64,000 nucleotides of DNA. It comes from Butyrivibrio fibrisolvens 16/4 (GTDB taxonomy: Bacteria > Bacillota > Clostridia > Lachnospirales > Lachnospiraceae). This document shows positions 14,177-22,018 of the stretch, in pieces. Made by a program: the position numbers and the translations under genes. How positions within the stretch are numbered: the first letter of the stretch is position 1; every line of letters begins with the position of its first letter. The notes under the pieces were generated by a model, which saw nothing but the letters and a program-made list of their open reading frames with translations, did not search any database and had not been told where the DNA came from. The stretch spans positions 1,501,824 through 1,565,823 of the forward strand of contig FP929036.1 of NCBI GenBank assembly GCA_000209815.1, written 5' to 3'.

Positions 14177-14220
14177 AAGTGCCGCAGCCATATCAATGAT
14201 ATGGCTGCGGCACTTTTTGT
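14177..14220 (+). terminator. Strong intrinsic terminator after metA
   Basis: A stem of about 17 bp, AAGTGCCGCAGCCATAT paired with ATATGGCTGCGGCACTT, ends in a T-rich tract. The tract runs straight into the palindromic repeat array. Confidence 0.93.
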
Positions 14221-14490
14221 TTTATCACAAGATTGTCTGCCAGCCCGCTAACTTCCGTTGGGCTGTGATAAATTTTTGCTGATTTGACTTAGGATTTATC
14301 ACAAGTGAACGAAGACAAGGGGCTGCTGAGACTTCTTGTGATAAAAATCAGCCGAAATTCTCATTTTTTATCACAAACCAACGACAACATGCGGCTTCCG
14401 AGAGTTTTATTTGATAAATTCTAGTGCAAATCTTCATTTTTTTATCGCAGCAAGTCTGCCAACACGCAATCTTTTGTTGGGTTGCGATAG
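14221..14490. repeat. Array of four palindromic units with 72-74 base period
   Basis: Four units start at 14221, 14295, 14367 and 14441; each is 50-52 bases, separated by 21-22 base spacers. Each begins TTTATCACAA-like and ends with the inverted TTGTGATAAA. Unit 2 has perfect 11-base arms (TTTATCACAAG/CTTGTGATAAA). Unit 4 has TATCGCA/TGCGATA, so both arms changed together. Units 1 and 4 share a core (GTCTGCCA...GTTGGG) and units 2 and 3 share another (AACGA..ACA). It matches no CRISPR, tRNA or terminator pattern. Array layout is seen directly; function is unknown. Confidence 0.8.
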
Positions 14491-14631
14491 CTGACTTATT
14501 GGAAGAGACCGAATCGGAGCTGTTTGATAATTGACAATAGTATGTAAAAATATTTAAAAGGAGAAGTGCTATTTGACAAAGTATTCGTTTAGAAGATAAG
14601 AAAGATTAGTCTTCATTGCCAGGAGGTAACA

Positions 14632-14871
14632 AATTGTACAGTTACATTTGATGGATGCTTTGCAGTAAAAAATTTCTCCATCGTGGAAAACAAGAAAGGC
14701 GAATACTTTGTATCCATGCCAAGCTACAAAACTAAAACTTTGGATACTGATGGCAATCCAGTTTTCAAAGATATCGCATTTCCGATAACTAAGGAATTTA
14801 GGGAAGCGTTGTATGGAAAGATATTGGAGGGCTTTGAAATCGGGGAGGAGATGGAGTTTGATTGGCGATAA
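14632..14871 (+). pseudogene. SpoVG-like domain protein, start lost
   Basis: The frame reads TVTFDGCFAVKNFSIVENKK, then GEYFVSMPSYKTKTL, DIAFPITKEFREALYGKILE and stops at TAA. This is the SpoVG fold seen in short proteins carried by integrative elements and phages of Clostridia; true SpoVG is a small nucleic-acid-binding protein. An AGGAGG site lies at 14621, but no ATG, GTG or TTG in this frame follows it. Either the start was mutated or a one-base error hides it. About 78 residues remain, the size of the whole domain. It lies at the left edge of the island. Confidence 0.55.
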
Positions 14872-14897
14872 AATGTAATTTGTAAATGATATGGCCC

Positions 14898-14930
14898 ACC
14901 GTCTGCCGATAGGAAGACGGTAGATTTTTG
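14898..14930 (+). terminator. Probable terminator after the SpoVG-like relic
   Basis: ACCGTCT and AGACGGT form a 7-bp stem, with five T residues starting three bases after it. Confidence 0.55.
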
Positions 14931-14986
14931 TATTCATAAAAAATATTTTTTGCTAGTTACGGTCTATACTGTGCTGAATTCATGTG

Positions 14987-15017
14987 TTAACATTACTATA
15001 AAATCATTATATATAAT
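14987..15017 (+). promoter_or_regulatory. Probable promoter for the 15041 gene
   Basis: TTAACA and TATAAT are spaced by 19 bases, with the -10 ending 23 bases before the ATG at 15041. Spacing is slightly long. Confidence 0.45.
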
Positions 15018-15040
15018 AGTTGGGTGGGAGAATAAATAAT

Positions 15041-16996
15041 ATGGATGAGACATATAGAACACTAGCGAGTCTTGCTGTAGCGAGGGAATTGTATGATCGA
15101 GAGAAAAGTTTATATGATGTATTAAAGGAGTATATAAAAGTAATCATTATCGAAGAAAAACTATATTCATTTGATATTTCTGAACTTACAAGTTTACTAA
15201 ACAGAAGGTTTAGTTTTTCTGTTAAAGATGCAGTTGTAAAAACATGTTTACGTCAAATGAATCTTGGTCACACAGGGTCAATTTGGCAATGTGACATAGG
15301 TCAATTTAATATCGACGGATGGCAGCAATCAACGATTGAGGCAGAAAGAAAGAGTAAAAGTATAATTCGACAATTGATGAATTATATAGGTACTGTTAAT
15401 GATATTGAAGAACTTGATTATGATGAAAACTATTACGCGAAAACATTTTGTGATTTTTAATTAATAGTGGAGCAATATCTAATGATGAACTAAAGAAGAT
15501 TTATAGTGAATTTATTGTTTCAATGGAAGGTAATGAAGAGTTTGTAGATGTTATCTCTCAATTGAAAGAAGGAACTATATTTTTCGAAGGCATTCGATTT
15601 TGTGATAATCCAAGTGAAATAGGTTCACGGTGGAAAGGAAATATGAATTTATATTTTGATACTGAAATTTTGTTTGCAGTATCGGGATATAATAATTCGT
15701 TGCTTCAAGATTACTCTCTCGAACTTTTAAAAAGTGTTAAAGAAATAAATCGCAATTGTCCTAAAGATAAACGTATTAAAATAAAATTCTTTGAATCAAC
15801 CAAAAAAGAAATTGATTACTATTTTGATTCTGCTATTAGAATTGTTAAGGGGCAAGATGTACTAGATCCTACTAAAGAAGCTATGTCCCAAATAGTTAAA
15901 GGGTGCTTGAGAAAAAGTGATGTAGAGCAAAAGCGCTCTTTATTATTTCAAAATCTAAGGGAAAAAGGCATAGAGTTAGATTGGGAAAACTATTATGATG
16001 AAAAATATGCAGATTACAATATTGAGCAACAAGAATTAGAAGATAAGTATACTTCGTTATGGGGGCAATCGCAAAATCTTATTCATGACTCAATTAAGCA
16101 GTTAAGTAATATTAATAAAATTAGAAAGGCTGTAAATGATAGAGGTCTCGAAAATTGTATTGCGATATTTGTTACTGGAACAAGTAGGACTATTAAACTT
16201 TCGAAAGCAGAGGAATTTATTAATGAACATGAGGTACCTAAAGCAACAACAGTTGATTTTTTAATTAATTATTTATGGCTCAAATCTAACAAGGGATTTG
16301 GTGTGGGAAGTACGCCTAGAACATTAGATATGATTGCTCAATCAAGATTTATTTTAAAAAATATGATGATTGATCAATTATCTGAGCAATATTTGCAAGC
16401 AAAAGGCATGTATGAAAATGATGAACTATCGAAGGAAGCTTTTGCTCAGTTAAATTTTGATATTAGAGAAAAATTCAGCATGTTGAAGATGGCGATATGG
16501 GAATAAATGAAGCACTTGAAGATGTTAGCAAATGGGACTTTAGAAGTGCTGACGAGTTGGTGAATTATCAGAAAAGTAAAGAAAACAAAAAGACGAAAAG
16601 ATAGCAACGTTTTCAAAAACTATTGAATATCAAGAACAACAATTAACGGTAGTAACTGAAGATAATAATAAGAAAAATGATATTATAGAACGACAAGGAG
16701 AACAGCTTCAGCAAGCAAATTCTATTATTCAAGAATATCAAGAGAAGGATAGGAGACATAGAAGACGTAAGAGAAAAGCTATTATTGCTTGCATAATATT
16801 AATGATTATAGGGTTTTCGTGTTTATTAGTTTGGGGAATTCTTAATCAAAAAATGTTTGTGAATATTTTTTCGGGAATCATGGATTTAATTGGATTTGTT
16901 ATGCTTTTTTCACCGCTTAAGAAAAAAATATATCCCATAGAGGAGATTATTCAAAATGTAGATGAATTATCATGCGAGGATGATATATCAGCATAA
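15041..16996 (+). CDS. Unrecognised large island protein: possible PIN-like nuclease, coiled coil, membrane tail (three frame breaks)
   Basis: Three one-base repairs join four fragments into one frame of about 652 residues: T5 at 15454, G3 at 16499 and A5 at 16587 each gain one base. Residues 1-140 are helical. From about residue 200 a segment reads MNLYFDTEILFAVSG, then FFESTKKEIDYYF and later CIAIFVTGTSRTIK. The spacing of acidic residues and the final beta strand recall PIN-type nucleases, but the last acidic residue is not obvious. A Gln/Glu-rich coiled coil and one or two membrane helices (IIACIILMIIGFSCLLVWGI) end the protein. It lies beside a restriction-modification pair, so a defence role is plausible but unproven. 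Confidence 0.6.
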
Positions 16997-17030
16997 TAAG
17001 AAAGGGCAGTTTTCTGCCCTTTCTTATTCT
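16997..17030. terminator. Terminator after the 15041 gene
   Basis: A 13-bp perfect stem TAAGAAAGGGCAG/CTGCCCTTTCTTA with a TTTT loop, starting right at the stop codon. The tail is only moderately T-rich. Confidence 0.75.
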
Positions 17031-17034
17031 ATAA

Positions 17035-17179
17035 TTGTTTCATTGCGATTTTGAGATTATTAAAAATACGACGGATAGTTATCATTTATATGATGCTATC
17101 TGTTTTTTGTGTGAAAAAGGAATAGATTTAATTACAAAAGCGCATGTTCGGGGTGGATCAAAGCGATGTCTTATGATAT
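17035..17179 (+). pseudogene. Possible gene remnant upstream of the methyltransferase
   Basis: An open frame of 48 codons from TTG reads YDAICFLCEKGIDLITKAHV, then RGGSKRCLMI and stops. The pattern of a hydrophobic strand followed by KGIDLITKA resembles the core of some DDE transposases, but the match is too short to be sure. No ribosome site precedes it. It may be the end of a gene deleted when the island formed, or chance. Confidence 0.25.
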
Positions 17180-17259
17180 AATAATTTTCGGTCATCGATC
17201 CATCAATTGATGGTGCTAATTTTATTCGACCAAATACAAGTGGGATGGCTATTTAGCCA
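17174..17259 (+). promoter_or_regulatory. Promoter and palindromes ahead of the methyltransferase
   Basis: An extended -10 (TGATATAAT, 17174-17182) is followed by the 14-base palindrome CCATCAATTGATGG (17200-17213), which starts inside a GATC site. A second hairpin TGGCTA-TT-TAGCCA lies just before the AGGAGG site. These fit control of restriction-modification expression, by a repressor, by methylation of the promoter GATC, or by RNA folding; which one is not known. Confidence 0.5.
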
Positions 17260-17274
17260 AGGAGGACTTATGTT

Positions 17275-18495
17275 ATGCAAAAAACAATATGTGAATTATT
17301 TGCCGGAGTCGGAGGATTTCGGTTAGGTTTTGAACGCCTTAATACAGGATGGAACACAACATGGTTTTCACAATGGGAACCAGAAAAAAAGAACCAATGG
17401 GCTCATGATTGTTATGTTGAGCATTTTGGAGATTTGCCAGATTTACAAGGAGAGTTTCATACTGGCGAAGATATTAGCATAATTAATAAAGACAATATTC
17501 CTGATCATAATCTTTTAGTTGGTGGATTCCCATGTCAGGATTATAGTGTTGCACATTCTTTAAATACGTCTGAAGGTATTGCAGGGAAAAAGGGAGTCCT
17601 TTGGTGGCAGATTCGCGATACCATCATTGCAAAAAATCCGGCTTTTTGTATTTTTGAGAATGTTGATAGATTATTAAAGTCACCTGCAAAGCAAAGGGGA
17701 AGAGATTTTGGTATTATTCTTGCTTGCTTAGCTAATCTTGGATATTCAGTTGAATGGAGAGTAGTAAATGCAGCTACATATGGAGCTGCACAGAGGAGAA
17801 GAAGAACTTTCATTTTTGCGTATAGAAACGATACTGTTTATGGTCAGCAGATGTCCGGACAGAATGCAGAACAGCTTATCAAAACAAATGGTTTTATGGC
17901 ACAAGCTTTTCCTATTAGTGAAATGGGAGAAATTGCAGAAATTGATTTGATTGAGGATTTGGTGGAAATCTCTGATTCATTTGCATTTTCATTTGAAAAT
18001 GCTGGTTATATGACGAATCATCATGTGTATACTTCTAAAACCATCGAAAGAGAAGAACCACCTATTCTTTTAAGGGATATATTAGAGCATAATGTTGAAG
18101 AGTCATTTTATATCAATGATGAAGATAAAATGGCAAAATGGGTGTATTTAAAGGGTGCAAAAAAGATTCCTAGAAAGACAAAAGAGGGACATGAATACAC
18201 TTTTTCTGAAGGGCCAGTTGCTTTTCCTGATCCTTGGGATAGGCCAGGGCGAACAATGTTAACTAGTGAATCAACGCTTAATCGCAGTACCCATGTTGTT
18301 TCAGATCTTGATACAGGAAGATTGAGGATTCTTACACCGATTGAAGCCGAGAGATTACAAGGATTTGATGATGATTGGACTAACACAGGTATGCCTCAAA
18401 GAATGAGATTTTTCTGTATGGGTAATGCGCTTGTTGTTCCGATGATTACTAGGATGGGCTCAATTCTTGATACTATTATTCAAAATGAACCATAG
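17275..18495 (+). CDS. C5-cytosine DNA methyltransferase (predicted GATC-specific)
   Basis: A 406-residue enzyme that methylates carbon 5 of cytosine from S-adenosylmethionine. Motif I FAGVGGFRLGF, motif IV with catalytic Cys GGFPCQDYS, motif VI ENVDRLL, motif VIII QRRRRTF and motif X GNALVVP are all present, so it should be active. It lies 12 bases upstream of a Sau3AI-like endonuclease. In the Sau3AI system the partner is also a C5 enzyme acting on GATC, so GATC specificity is inferred from context and length. A good AAGGAGG site precedes the ATG. Confidence 0.93.
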   Translation: MQKTICELFAGVGGFRLGFERLNTGWNTTWFSQWEPEKKNQWAHDCYVEHFGDLPDLQGEFHTGEDISIINKDNIPDHNLLVGGFPCQDYSVAHSLNTSEGIAGKKGVLWWQIRDTIIAKNPAFCIFENVDRLLKSPAKQRGRDFGIILACLANLGYSVEWRVVNAATYGAAQRRRRTFIFAYRNDTVYGQQMSGQNAEQLIKTNGFMAQAFPISEMGEIAEIDLIEDLVEISDSFAFSFENAGYMTNHHVYTSKTIEREEPPILLRDILEHNVEESFYINDEDKMAKWVYLKGAKKIPRKTKEGHEYTFSEGPVAFPDPWDRPGRTMLTSESTLNRSTHVVSDLDTGRLRILTPIEAERLQGFDDDWTNTGMPQRMRFFCMGNALVVPMITRMGSILDTIIQNEP

Positions 18496-18507
18496 GAGGA
18501 CTAAATA

Positions 18508-20055
18508 ATGACTTTATCGTATGATTATATAAAACATGATAGGCGAGACATTCTTAGGCATGCCAAGGTATTAGAAAATAATTATTATGTTGGTGATGTT
18601 TATAACTTGGAAAAGTCTGGTAAATGTAGAGAAGAATTATTAGAATATTACGATGAAAAGCACATGATTGGCTATACTGATGATAGTGGAAAATATCATC
18701 GTCCCGATAAAGGCAGAATTGGAAATCTTGTTCAAGAAGTATACTTTGATCAACCTAGGGATAATATGTCAGAATCCGATTTACGTGAAGCGGGTGTGGA
18801 ATTAAAAGTAAGCCCATTGAAATTCAGACCTCGTGCGGGATTGGGAGTAAAAGAACGACTTTTGCTGGGAATGATTAACCGTGAAGATAGGTTGCCAGAA
18901 AACTTTTGTGATTCGCACATTTACAAAAAGTGTAAATTGATGATGTTAGTTTATTATATTGATGAAACATCTCAGAATAGGACACCATTTGAGTTTCCAT
19001 TTTATAAGTCTGCTTATGTAAAAATTCCTGAAGTAGACATGGCAATGATTGAGCAAGATTATAAATATATAAGAGATTGCGTTAACGAAGGAAGATATGA
19101 CGATTTGCATGAAAGTAGAGCGCATTATCTTTCACCGTGTACCAAAAATTCTGGAAGAGCTTTTTCATTTAAACCATCGTATATGAATCAGCTTTTTAGA
19201 GAATATATAAATGCCGATAGAATTTTATATAATCCAGACAATGATCAAGAAACATTTGATATCATCAATCAGTATGATCCAATTGTAACTAATCCAGATG
19301 ATTTACAAAATCGCACATTTGAAGAGATTGTTCTAGATAAATTTGAACCATACAAGGGAATGACTATTAATGAGATTAGACAATCTCTTATGGATTTAGA
19401 TGATTATGAAACATGGAGTACAAGTGCTTCATACGATAAAGCTGTATTTGCTAGGACAACTTTTGCCATGCTTGGAATAACAAGTGAAGAAGCAGAGGAA
19501 TTTGTCAGATCAAATACCTATGTAAAATCTCTTAGAATAGAACAAGATGATACCATGAATGAAGACATTTCATTCTCAGCTTTTGATTTTTCTGAGTTAC
19601 TTGAAGAAGAGTGGGAAGAATCAACAGTTTATGATGAAATGGTTGCTAGATCTTTTTTATGGGCTATATACAAGCATGATGGCACTGATTATATATTTAA
19701 GGGTGCAACATTTTGGAGTTTGCCAATAGAAGATTATGAAACCGTTCATAGTGGTTGGGAAGATATTAGAGATATAATCAGGACCGGCGTCAACTTTGCT
19801 TTAGATATAAAAGCAGATGGAGAATATGTAACAACTAAAAGAGGAAAGAATAGAATTCTAAATAGTTTTCCAGATACAAGGAATACAAATCCAAATAGAA
19901 AAGAATATAGATTATGCCCATCATCAAAACCATATAATCGAATTATTTCGATTAGACCACATGCATCATTGGTTTATTATGAATTGAATAGCTTAAATTA
20001 TTTTGATACAGAAAACGGTAAACCAACGGTAGCACATTACCAAATGGTGATGTAA
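18508..20055 (+). CDS. Sau3AI/MutH-family type II restriction endonuclease (GATC)
   Basis: A 515-residue protein similar in length and block order to Sau3AI. The first half has the MutH-like catalytic site: ESDLREAGVELKVSPLKF, with Asp and the ExK pair, then KERLLLGMIN. Family blocks HYLSPCTK and GRAFSFKPSYM follow. The C-terminal half repeats the fold without the catalytic residues (SFSAFDFSELLEEEWEES, FWSLPIEDYE), as in Sau3AI, where it acts as an allosteric DNA-binding domain. Predicted cut is at GATC. It is translated from its own GGAGG site, 12 bases after the methyltransferase stop. Confidence 0.88.
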   Translation: MTLSYDYIKHDRRDILRHAKVLENNYYVGDVYNLEKSGKCREELLEYYDEKHMIGYTDDSGKYHRPDKGRIGNLVQEVYFDQPRDNMSESDLREAGVELKVSPLKFRPRAGLGVKERLLLGMINREDRLPENFCDSHIYKKCKLMMLVYYIDETSQNRTPFEFPFYKSAYVKIPEVDMAMIEQDYKYIRDCVNEGRYDDLHESRAHYLSPCTKNSGRAFSFKPSYMNQLFREYINADRILYNPDNDQETFDIINQYDPIVTNPDDLQNRTFEEIVLDKFEPYKGMTINEIRQSLMDLDDYETWSTSASYDKAVFARTTFAMLGITSEEAEEFVRSNTYVKSLRIEQDDTMNEDISFSAFDFSELLEEEWEESTVYDEMVARSFLWAIYKHDGTDYIFKGATFWSLPIEDYETVHSGWEDIRDIIRTGVNFALDIKADGEYVTTKRGKNRILNSFPDTRNTNPNRKEYRLCPSSKPYNRIISIRPHASLVYYELNSLNYFDTENGKPTVAHYQMVM

Positions 20056-20168
20056 TGACAAAGCAATGTTTTTGGTTCAATAATGAGTATATTCTTGAAC
20101 AATTGCAAGATTATATTTGATTTTGAGTTCTTAATATTACATATCAAAATCGGAGAGCTAGTATATTG

Positions 20169-20447
20169 ATGATTGGGTTCAATAATGCTAATATCTTTGT
20201 TAGTGAACGTACTGGAGAAACTTGTGAAGCCTCTGGTCCGGAAGGCTCCTGAGGGGGCCTTTCGTTATTTATGGGGAATTATGGATAAACCTTTTAAAAC
20301 ATATGATGAGTTGCTTGATTTTTTTGGAGAGAAAAAAGCAATTAGTTATCTCAGGCAGCTGAAATTGATGAAGAAATTACAGTTCTTAATCGAAATCTAG
20401 AAATTCTAAAATTACGATTGGACAATTTTCATAACCATCAACTATAG
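20169..20447 (+). pseudogene. Small gene or gene remnant after the endonuclease, frame broken
   Basis: Three overlapping frames look coding in turn. ATG at 20169 gives FNNANIFVSERTGETCEASG, then the frame shifts near 20250 to APEGAFRYLWGIMDKPFKTY-DELLDFFGEKKAIS. Near 20346 it shifts again to SQAAEIDEEITVLNRNLEIL-KLRLDNFHNHQL and TAG. The second shift is cured by one T; the first is less clear. A hairpin GGCTCC-TGAG-GGGGCC sits in the middle. The product would be about 90 residues and ends in a coiled coil. Not recognised. The stretch 20056-20168 before it holds nothing else convincing. Confidence 0.35.
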
Positions 20448-20488
20448 GGATTCCCGAAAAGCTATGGCTATAGGCTATGAAATATATA

Positions 20489-20518
20489 TTGAAATTTGTA
20501 GTTTTTTAATGTTATCAT
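20489..20518 (+). promoter_or_regulatory. Promoter of candidate small RNA 1
   Basis: TTGAAA and TATCAT are spaced by 18 bases. Predicted start is near 20525, just before a row of hairpins. Confidence 0.5.
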
Positions 20519-20524
20519 CTTAAC

Positions 20525-20604
20525 AAGAAGAAGCAGTGATGCTTCTGGGCTGGTCGAAAGACCCGGGTCCACCAAAAAGCGGGTAAGACACCCGCTATTT
20601 TAAC
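20525..20604 (+). ncRNA. Candidate small RNA 1
   Basis: No reading frame fits, but the stretch is highly structured. It has hairpin AGAAGCA-GTGA-TGCTTCT, then GGTC-GAAA-GACC with a GNRA tetraloop, then terminator AGCGGGT-AAGAC-ACCCGCT followed by ATTTT. A promoter-like sequence lies directly upstream. The transcript would be about 80 bases. It matches no RNA family I know. Its place between the restriction enzyme and a GNAT pair is suggestive only. Confidence 0.5.
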
Positions 20605-20670
20605 CTAATAAAGCTAGTTTTTGTGTGAAACACATGTATTGTTTTTAGGTTAGATTGATATAATATACAG

Positions 20671-20813
20671 TTAAGAAAGGCGTATGCCTTGGTGGGTTGA
20701 CACCTAAAATCTGATACTTTTTCCAGACATAGGTGCTGGAGGTTGGCAGACAACGGAAAAATCAACCACTAAATGGGAATGTACATTGCTACGGCATATA
20801 CATTCCCATTTTA
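20671..20813 (+). ncRNA. Candidate small RNA 2
   Basis: An extended -10 (TGATATAAT) at 20656-20664 precedes four successive hairpins. They are AAGGC/GCCTT, CACCTA..TCTG/CAGA..TAGGTG, GGTTG/CAACC and a terminator-like 11-bp stem ATGGGAATGTA/TACATTCCCAT with T residues. About 140 bases, no convincing reading frame. The chain of nested stems ending in a terminator is typical of a stand-alone structured RNA. Not identified. Confidence 0.5.
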
Positions 20814-20824
20814 AATGGAAATCT

Positions 20825-20880
20825 GAGCGAAAGCTCTTTTAATCACCGTAGGTGGAAGAATTTCCCACTATTTTTATTTA
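20825..20880 (+). terminator. Two further hairpins with T tracts
   Basis: GAGC-GAAA-GCTC followed by TTTT, then GTGG..CCAC followed by TATTTTTATTT. They probably back up termination of the small RNA region. The remaining bases to 21006 hold an extended -10 (TGATATAAT at 20972-20980) for the next gene. Confidence 0.45.
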
Positions 20881-21006
20881 AAATTAGCTGTATTGAATAC
20901 TTAAGTGTTTTGCAGCTGAGGCTAGAAATTGGTATATAAAACATTACTGAATAGAAGAATGATTGGAATTATGATATAATTAAAGCAGAATAAGCGAGGG
21001 ATAATA

Positions 21007-21560
21007 ATGATTACAGTTTGGATTGACGATTTTACTCCTTGTCTAAAGGATGAATCAACGGGAGAATTAGTTGATACAGAAGTAGTAAGATTAAAAGAAA
21101 AAGTTTTCTTGAAAAGTATAATAAAAATAATGGATGGTATATTAATTGGGCTGAGTTACTTGATGCAGATAATGAGATTTATGCACTAGTTATTAAAGGG
21201 TCAGTTAATATACAGGGATTGATAGCATTAGCAGGTAGTGATGATATGCAAGCTGTTCATATTGCATGGATGGTTGCAGCTCCTGACAATAATCCTGTTT
21301 TTTCAGAAGATCATAGCAAAAAATACAGTGGAGTAGGTGGGCATTTATTTGCCATTGCAGCACAGCGCTCAGAAGAAATGGGATATGAAGGTGCTATTAC
21401 AGGAAATGCAGCCAATAAGGAGTTGGTCGAACATTATCAAGAAGTATTCAATGCTCAACATATAGGAATGCTTCATCCATACCAGGTTTTTATTGATTCG
21501 CCAGATACTGCGAAAATCAGAGAGGTATATAACTATGAATGGACAAATGAAGAACTATAA
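21007..21560 (+). CDS. GNAT-family acetyltransferase-like protein (frame break)
   Basis: About 184 residues after repair. The first part, MITVWIDDFTPCLKDESTGE, is followed by a break at an A4 run (21112-21115); a fifth A restores KKYNKNNGWYINWAELLDAD. Later IHIAWMVAAPDNNP-type strand and KYSGVGGHLFAIAAQRSEEM give the GNAT acetyl-CoA loop (GVGGHL). The target is unknown. It overlaps the next small gene by 26 bases, an arrangement common in toxin-antitoxin pairs. Acetyltransferase toxins exist, but this one is not shown to be such. Confidence 0.65.
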
Positions 21561-21730
21561 TAATTATTATAAGCAGTTGGAAACGATGGATTTAACGCCT
21601 GTTTCTGCAAAAGATTTGCCTCATGTTAAATTAGATATTAGGGGGGGCAATTGCTTATGCAAAGAAATTAGGTAAGCAAGTTTTTGAATTGACAGATGAA
21701 GAAAAACAAAGGTTTATGCGTACTTATTAA
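21535..21730 (+). CDS. Small partner protein with DIRGAIAYAK motif (frame break)
   Basis: A 64-residue protein after repair. A run of seven G (21641-21647) must be read as six to give KLDIRGAIAYAKKLGKQVFE and then LTDEEKQRFM. This short conserved family is often seen next to GNAT-like genes in Clostridia (from memory). It has no predicted membrane segment and no DNA-binding motif I can see. The start lies inside the end of the GNAT gene, so the two are probably translationally coupled. Antitoxin-like role is inference. Confidence 0.55.
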
Positions 21731-21754
21731 TAGGGGTTAAACTTTGACTTTTTT

Positions 21755-21800
21755 ATAGACCAGCGACTCTGGTGGAGCCCAGACTAACTGGTCTATTATT
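21755..21800 (+). terminator. Terminator after the GNAT pair
   Basis: ATAGACCAG pairs with CTGGTCTAT, enclosing an inner stem CTCTGG/CCCAGA, and TATTTTG follows. Confidence 0.7.
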
Positions 21801-21954
21801 TTGTCCCAAATGGTGTTTTGATCAAGGTGATGCTAAGTGTCGCAGCACAAAGGCTGCGGCTTCTGAGAGTTTTATGGGATAAAATATAGTCAAAATCTTC
21901 ATTTTTTTATCGCAGCAAGTCTGCCAACACGCAATCTTTTGTTGGGTTTCGATA
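21799..21954. repeat. Right-hand copy of the palindromic repeat
   Basis: Bases 21856-21954 match 14391-14490 at about nine in ten positions, and the last 62 bases match at all but one. The left palindromic unit here has arms TTTTGTCCCA/TGGGATAAAA instead of TTTTATCACA/TGTGATAAAA, again changed on both sides. An internal CGCAGC/GCTGCG hairpin resembles the metA terminator stem. The two copies bracket the island. Confidence 0.8.
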
Positions 21955-22018
21955 CAGTAAAATCAAAAATCAAAATAGCGTTAGGTGGCTCAAATTTTAA
22001 TCAGCGCACGGAGGTTTT

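Follow-up and report, generated by a model that had tools for sequence, protein, structure and literature searches.

Phased palindrome arrays linked to a nuclease family in Butyrivibrio fibrisolvens 16/4 and Pseudobutyrivibrio genomes: a candidate homing-like system

We analyzed a 64,000-nucleotide (nt) stretch of contig FP929036.1 from Butyrivibrio fibrisolvens 16/4 (positions 1,501,824 to 1,565,823; hereafter the window), in which an array of four palindromic units spans 14222-14490, and compared it with related arrays and with a nuclease family whose genes lie beside many of them. The units occupy 14222..14271 (unit 1, minus strand, 50 nt, arms TTATCACA/TGTGATAA, core polarity <), 14296..14344 (unit 2, plus strand, 49 nt, >), 14368..14417 (unit 3, plus strand, 50 nt, single arm mismatch, >), and 14442..14490 (unit 4, minus strand, 49 nt, arms ATCGCA/TGCGAT, <), which gives the polarity order < > > <. 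The start-to-start spacings are 74, 72, and 74 bases, so these coordinates bear out the original prediction of four regular units every 72-74 bases, with a measured unit length of 49-50 nt. The pattern TTTATCRCA N30-40 TGYGATA has five matches in the window (three on the plus strand and two on the minus strand), all within the array, whereas 100 shuffled versions of the window average 0.00. The predicted inverted ends are good in units 1, 2, and 4, whereas those of unit 3 are imperfect (TTATCACA / TTTGATAA). The two proposed core subtypes, 1/4 and 2/3, are real and correspond to one asymmetric core read in opposite directions. In contrast, the TCCCA/TGGGA pair proposed for the far end of the island is out of register, and the sole match to TCCCA N30-60 TGGGA in the window lies elsewhere (chance mean 1.10). 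The regular array was retained from the prediction, while this pair and a strong co-change of the arms were not.

The left neighbor of the array is metA, encoding homoserine O-succinyltransferase (PF04204; 13238..14161, plus strand), followed, outside the array, by a perfect 19 bp inverted repeat and T-rich DNA (14177..14215, plus strand), which is probably the terminator of metA. On the right, a 7.3 kb restriction-modification (R-M) island (14491..21854) is situated between two directly repeated array pieces, the second of which marks the island's right edge and directly repeats unit 4 together with the end of unit 3 (21855..21955, plus strand; genome 1523678-1523777; 92% identical). The two pieces align with a score of 84 in direct orientation and 19 in inverted orientation. 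Pfam matches identify the cargo as a C-5 cytosine DNA methyltransferase (PF00145; 17275..18495, plus strand) and an endonuclease with a MutH domain (PF02976; 18508..20055, plus strand), the latter of which we take to be Sau3AI-type. Arrays also adjoin metA in genomes G003, G011, and G021, and different DNA borders the array in each; G022 and G014 carry similar arrays, but metA is not visible in their stretches. A unit identical to window unit 2 is present in the related arrays of G011 and G022. The window array may be a solo-type array beside metA that took up, or was left beside, R-M cargo. The island also contains a DUF3800-XI RNA (Rfam RF02975, 65.2 bits; 20546-20593), and the DNA around 20543-20875 matches metA-neighbor variable regions of G011 and G021.

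The wider comparison used one genome per species, mostly 65-86% alike where matching; array detection was strict and misses degenerate arrays, and all statistical P values ignore relatedness. Units of the form TTATCRCA...TGYGATAA (about 48-50 nt) occur in 10 of the 29 Pseudobutyrivibrio genomes, and the window's genome carries such arrays at three further loci. Among the matches listed, 128 units (124 distinct) in 34 stretches make up 39 arrays or single units dispersed across the genus, and an array typically has three or four units spaced 73 bp apart. Reading frames of more than 143 amino acids (aa) contain none of them, and the final bases of a 221 aa SfsA gene overlap with one. Outside the genus, the pattern gave three single matches among 32 genomes, compared with 2/32 for a control pattern, and we take these as chance. 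A viral origin was rejected; viral_contigs, scanned once with a pattern, yielded 14 matches, and no relative was confirmed among them. The original prediction had fitted the units to no named repeat class, and we likewise found the family under no name; no description of such arrays was located in the open-licence literature, which is not proof of absence. The palindrome arrays apparently constitute an undescribed family of gut-bacterial DNA arrays.

The TTATCRCA units are polar. The polarity counts for TTATCRCA and CTGTCACA arrays are samples; among the matches listed, the 39 TTATCRCA groups comprise 21 convergent, 2 divergent, 3 uniform, 6 other (the window array, L044, L045, L047, L049, and one array of locus L028), and 7 with fewer than three units, so that 21 of the 32 arrays with at least three units converge on one switch point and 2 diverge. 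The 23 CTGTCACA arrays with at least three units, again among the matches listed, are 17 uniform, 3 convergent, 1 divergent, and 2 other. These mixed orientations rule out a single polarity rule common to all arrays. Despite their different arms, the TTATCRCA and CTGTCACA units have the core AACGAAAAtA..GG in common.

Among the eight arm positions of the 124 distinct units, position 6 alone varies freely, with A or G on both sides (32 A-T, 44 G-C, 26 G-T, and 22 A-C). The two sides pair at this position in 76 units, compared with an expectation of 62.5 (P 0.018), and are wobble or mismatched in 48; position 10 shows 50 matches against 42.4 expected, and the other positions fall within 3 of expectation. 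The arms had been described as changing together in a way that showed selected or copied pairing. What we observe is that the partners at position 6 are weakly associated and that position 10 has a slight surplus of matches, with no compensation otherwise: many more copies came to light, but clear further compensatory pairs did not. A transcribed, folded RNA (non-coding RNA repeats, type III antitoxin-like or CRISPR-like) would account for the weak matched-arm excess and for the plus-strand folding of units 1, 2, and 4, which is somewhat better than that of shuffles (z -1.84, -2.55, and -2.15, respectively). Unit 3, however, folds no better than shuffles on this strand (z 0.54), the wobbles and mismatches at position 6 are frequent, and the spacing tracks the DNA helix. 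At gathering thresholds, Rfam finds two tRNAs and the DUF3800-XI RNA in the window and none in the array. The RNA reading was rejected on this null result, the unconvincing folding, and the weak compensation, and we regard it as very improbable indeed; 76/124 against 62.5 falls short of the compensatory change expected of a structured RNA. A CRISPR array was also rejected, given that the units vary and that the intervals in AAGGTATA arrays are related to each other; cas genes around the arrays were not searched for.

The spacing is that of a DNA feature. Between TTATCRCA unit centers, 76 of the 89 distinct spacings are 71-76 bp, and each of the remaining 13 is no more than one base away from 64.5, 84, 94.5, 104.5, 117.5, 167.5, or 179. 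These 13 odd spacings fall near whole 10.5 bp turns (Rayleigh P 3e-5; mean deviation 0.77 against 2.63 expected), as do 12 odd CTGTCACA spacings (P 3.5e-5) and 30 spacings from other genera (P 2e-8; L176, near-identical to L171, omitted). Whole-turn phasing also holds for the main periods, between 41 and 84 bp, of 33 arm types (P 1e-9) in a test that repeats an earlier one on 20 hand-picked periods; an 11 bp period fits almost equally and a 9.5 bp period far worse. Whole-turn spacing is what proteins confined to one face of duplex DNA would require, and it points to protein-bound duplex DNA. The array behaves as a DNA feature and not as a folded RNA, and the arms look like two copies of one protein-recognized half-site (TTATCRCA). 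The original prediction had offered a folded RNA, a cruciform site, or the ends of a small mobile element; the mobile-element option is favored, whereas a folded RNA or selected base pairing is not supported. The shortest period was seen at L346 (1119-1403), where seven units recur every 41-42 bp, or four helical turns, near a nuclease copy.

When the genes near the arrays were clustered, several groups proved to recur. Most recurring neighbors are common types where examined (response regulators, a kinase, an ABC ATPase, metA-neighborhood genes, and surface-repeat proteins), and one six-member group without a Pfam family occupies exactly the interval between two arrays at L028, L052, and L065, loci from three genomes. 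The six best genus matches of this between-array nuclease are all beside TTATCRCA arrays. Other copies of the family lack this arm, and many of them have arrays of their own, found in a blind search for repeated inverted-repeat units, with AAGGTATA, CTGTCACA, TTATCAAT, TTGTCAAA, AGTCAGCC, GGGCATCG, and more arms. Around 77 named nuclease loci (80 minus 3 without the searched motif), arrays occur in 30/146 near flanks and 1/137 far flanks; an earlier count (47/199 near, 1/137 far), which counted some loci twice and omitted 6/110 loci without the motif, was set aside. Outside Pseudobutyrivibrio, 17 of 62 nuclease loci have an array, and an order-wide search of 28 loci, two of them from the genus, found arrays in 7/28 compared with 0/28 after shuffling. 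The family has 5-11 matches in 19 of the 29 genus genomes and any match in 28/29, and it is present in 33 of 196 genomes sampled across the order. In the window's genome, four of five nuclease matches have own-arm arrays, two of these having only 2 or 3 units, and none was detected at the fifth.

The nuclease is also linked to its array by clade. The TTATCRCA nuclease clade is present in 6 genomes, all among the 10 with TTATCRCA arrays; the AAGGTATA clade in 6 genomes, all among the 7 with arrays (the seventh, G005, having a single unit); and the CTGTCACA clade in 5 genomes, exactly the 5 with arrays. Matching arrays thus accompany 17 of 17 nuclease-bearing genome-clade pairs for three arm types genus-wide. 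The AAGGTATA count leaves out a different 39 nt sequence with AAGGTATAA/TTATACCTT ends and an unrelated core (G000:C1:2651732-2651770), identical in G000, G014, G023, and G025 and variant in G027. The arms group by clade on a tree of 99 nucleases, where those of neighboring clades look alike by eye; L116, which has another arm, falls inside the TTATCRCA clade, and for many copies in the tree no array was detected. At L044 (6269-9323, G011), a AAGGTATA-type nuclease and array lie within ~2 kb of a TTATCRCA metA array, two systems in one place.

The nuclease has ~250 aa and belongs to no convincing family among Pfam, NCBIfam, and PDB sequences. The most frequent Pfam match involves only 5 of 74 members at E 0.021, NCBIfam (6 members) and the PDB sequence search gave nothing convincing, and PHROGs gave weak endonuclease matches. 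The AlphaFold2 model of the G002 member, which is 61% identical to the nuclease of the window's genome, has a pLDDT of 91.3 and a pTM of 0.57 and consists, in order, of a helix, a sheet of three strands, an extended helical region, and an alpha-beta core. In this predicted structure, moderate Z scores relate the core to Bax1, I-Bth0305I, TnsA, and VRR-NUC, the PDB-side comparison being a VIA-align look. The C-terminal domain is accordingly predicted to have a PD-(D/E)XK fold. The residues E159, D189, E204, H205, and D210 are invariant in all 74 aligned nucleases (of 77; L152, L187, and L193 were omitted), and E159, D189, H205, and D210 make up an EDxHD-like residue pattern by analogy.

It could be argued that the arrays are operators, bound by the nuclease-family protein or a partner as a phased multimer that controls its own and neighboring genes, with the solo arrays as a dispersed regulon. 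Phased palindromic half-sites outside main genes typify cooperative regulators, the array lies 5' of the nuclease in most CTGTCACA copies, and response-regulator and kinase genes neighbor several arrays. However, this alternative is weakened because the array is 3' of the nuclease gene in 6/6 copies of the AAGGTATA clade; furthermore, the near flanks with arrays split into 22 on the 5' side and 25 on the 3' side (some loci counted twice), and the catalytic-type residues are invariant. We consider operators unlikely, while giving them appreciable weight.

Thirteen pairs of arrays that bracket DNA were scored. Twelve of these align better in direct than in inverted orientation, and eight at least twice as well; the direct arrangement is clear in these eight (the window, L046, L047, L371, L374, L377, L380, and L383), moderately better in L113, and slightly better in L028, L052, and L065. 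The L089 pair shows no direct similarity at all, which slightly weakens the homing-like reading given below. A gene of the array-linked nuclease family lies inside nine of the 13 pairs. Of the other four, the window's pair holds the R-M island, that of L046 an ABC-transporter-like gene, that of L047 a YhcG/DUF1016 nuclease, and that of L383, by eye, a Fic-like protein and a helicase. In L383 (1090-5623), two near-identical CTGTCACA arrays surround the Fic-like gene and the large UvrD-like helicase gene (by eye), and this helicase holds a PDF...EHFG motif resembling the array nuclease.

Some of this between-array cargo is defense-like (R-M, YhcG/DUF1016, and Fic with helicase), and the C-terminal part of the nuclease resembles the PADLOC candidate defense proteins PDC-S68 and PDC-S69 (6/6 and 5/6 members, respectively). 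The nuclease might therefore be a defense effector or toxin, with the arrays as a decoy, self-marker, or addiction site and the cargo islands as defense islands. Nevertheless, the clade-specific arms, the many solo loci, and the nuclease-scrap derivatives resemble a population of mobile repeats and not one protective site, and the single scan of viral contigs gave no relative; we give this possibility a low probability.

In the AAGGTATA arrays, the first, middle, and last units are of different types in a set order, and the nuclease gene is convergent just after the last unit. Their copies share arrays, tails, and nuclease scraps, target-site duplication not being readable at this divergence; the dispersed copies in G021, G014, and G005 retain just a scrap of the nuclease-gene end or a different shared tail. 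A shared promoter-like tail of ~90-120 nt follows the last unit in L287, L288, L289, L292, and L296 and mostly ends in TTAACAAATC before unrelated genes. Pieces of this tail recur alone in many genus genomes, and it may partly be a separate dispersed promoter repeat. In G001, G015, and G027, the two genes that flank the L292 array and its cargo gene have neither between them, as a further check confirmed for G001 and G027. No TTATCRCA, AAGGTATA, or CTGTCACA unit lies near the counterpart of the right-hand gene of L074 in 20 of 20 loci (L195-L214), where the left neighbor is unconserved and some loci have little upstream DNA. An RNA-gene-like site beside L075 (by eye) gave no clean empty site, the nuclease locus of the window's genome has no syntenic counterpart as judged from one flank only, and no base-exact junction is readable at this divergence. 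From the dispersal, the differing nuclease surroundings, and the absences at L292 and the L074 counterparts, we infer that arrays and nuclease have moved.

RecA alone can exchange cargo between direct-repeat arrays, four TTATCRCA-array genomes lack the cognate nuclease, and other gene families also recur near arrays, all of which would suit passive repeats, like the repetitive extragenic palindromic (REP) sequences, moved by another enzyme or by homologous recombination, with the nuclease as frequent cargo. Passive cargo is not expected to change its clade together with the arms, as the nuclease does. In addition, the other recurring neighbors are common types where identified (response regulators, ABC ATPase), none of them between paired arrays in one mapping of the array neighborhoods, and the REP-associated tyrosine transposase (RAYT) family PF01797 does not track the arrays. 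We find passive repeats distinctly unlikely, and the nuclease, rather than another enzyme, would be the mover.

On balance, and with moderate confidence, we take the array to be the cognate target and recombination site of a homing-like nuclease family. A nuclease dimer would occupy each 49-50 bp unit, its two subunits on the two arms, with each clade's protein reading its own arms, and at least three units on the same helix face would assemble one phased nucleoprotein complex. Cleavage in or near the array would be followed by repair from another array copy, which would spread the arrays together with the DNA between two of them, often the nuclease gene and also cargo such as the R-M island. 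The whole would resemble a homing endonuclease that targets phased arrays of palindromes, and its cognate enzyme gene would be surrounded by REP-RAYT-like solo arrays. The broader proposal, at somewhat less than an even chance, is tentative: an as yet unnamed class of bacterial mobile system, in which a small homing-like nuclease has a clade-specific phased array of long palindromes as its target, solo arrays spread through the chromosome, and repeated arrays serve as docking sites at which the nuclease gene and cargo such as R-M and other defense genes are interchangeable.

Compared with known systems, the arrays resemble REP/REPIN-RAYT systems (Bertels and Rainey 2011, PMC3116915) in being intergenic palindromic repeat families, each with a cognate enzyme gene near some copies, and in their dispersed enzyme-free copies and the inverted arrangement of most TTATCRCA arrays. 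Repeat types that are each linked to a cognate enzyme gene and have dispersed copies were thus found here as well. On the other hand, the enzyme here has a predicted PD-(D/E)XK nuclease fold, whereas RAYT is a tyrosine transposase, and the arrays are longer in unit, helically phased, and bracket cargo mostly as direct repeats. REP palindromes measure 20-40 bp (PMC3733652). Array units measure 48-50 nt. REP palindromes carry a tetranucleotide tag such as GTAG; the arm consensus TTATCRCA (124 units) has no GTAG-like tag. A RAYT transposase as partner was rejected, six of the ten TTATCRCA-array genomes (G005, G011, G012, G014, G021, and G022) having no PF01797 match; G000, G002, G003, and G009 have one or more. 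The EDxHD homing endonuclease I-Bth0305I is similar in catalytic fold to that predicted here, has an E-D-H-D pattern to which the nuclease residues correspond by analogy, and dimerizes on an exceptionally long target; this target, of nearly 60 bp (PMC3943268), is close to one 49-50 bp palindromic unit here. Unlike EDxHD homing endonuclease genes, the gene here is flanked by palindrome arrays, the arms differ by clade, and solo target arrays lie in chromosomes; no intron or intein was noticed at the nuclease genes, although no search was aimed at them. The system is partly REP-RAYT-like and partly EDxHD-homing-like, and it lacks two tested defining features of REP-RAYT systems.

Further comparisons concern fold and phasing. 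Tn7-like ends are the comparison for TnsA; the arrays here are mostly direct, not inverted, around cargo, and the likeness is the structure match alone. Rpn/YhgA-like nucleases are comparable in fold. They are also mobilization- or defense-linked nuclease families, for which the available passages of PMC5350276 and PMC10327210 mention no palindromic arrays. No Rpn model was among the 25 of 60 Pfam families listed for nuclease members. Iterons and other phased binding-site arrays place repeats at whole helical turns for cooperative binding, whereas the units here are long palindromes with an asymmetric core and are linked to a nuclease gene.

The pairing of clade and array gives an unnamed nuclease family a likely substrate and makes of an orphan repeat an enzyme-site pair that can be tested. 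The arrays offer a route by which defense genes may be shuffled, and the natural arm series (TTATCRCA, TTATCAAT, TTGTCAAA, CTGTCACA, AAGGTATA, and more) is a ready set for learning how a protein reads DNA. Finally, just to the right of the window array, at 14683-14871, lies a 62 aa SpoVG-like frame (PF04026) that covers only the C-terminal half of the model.
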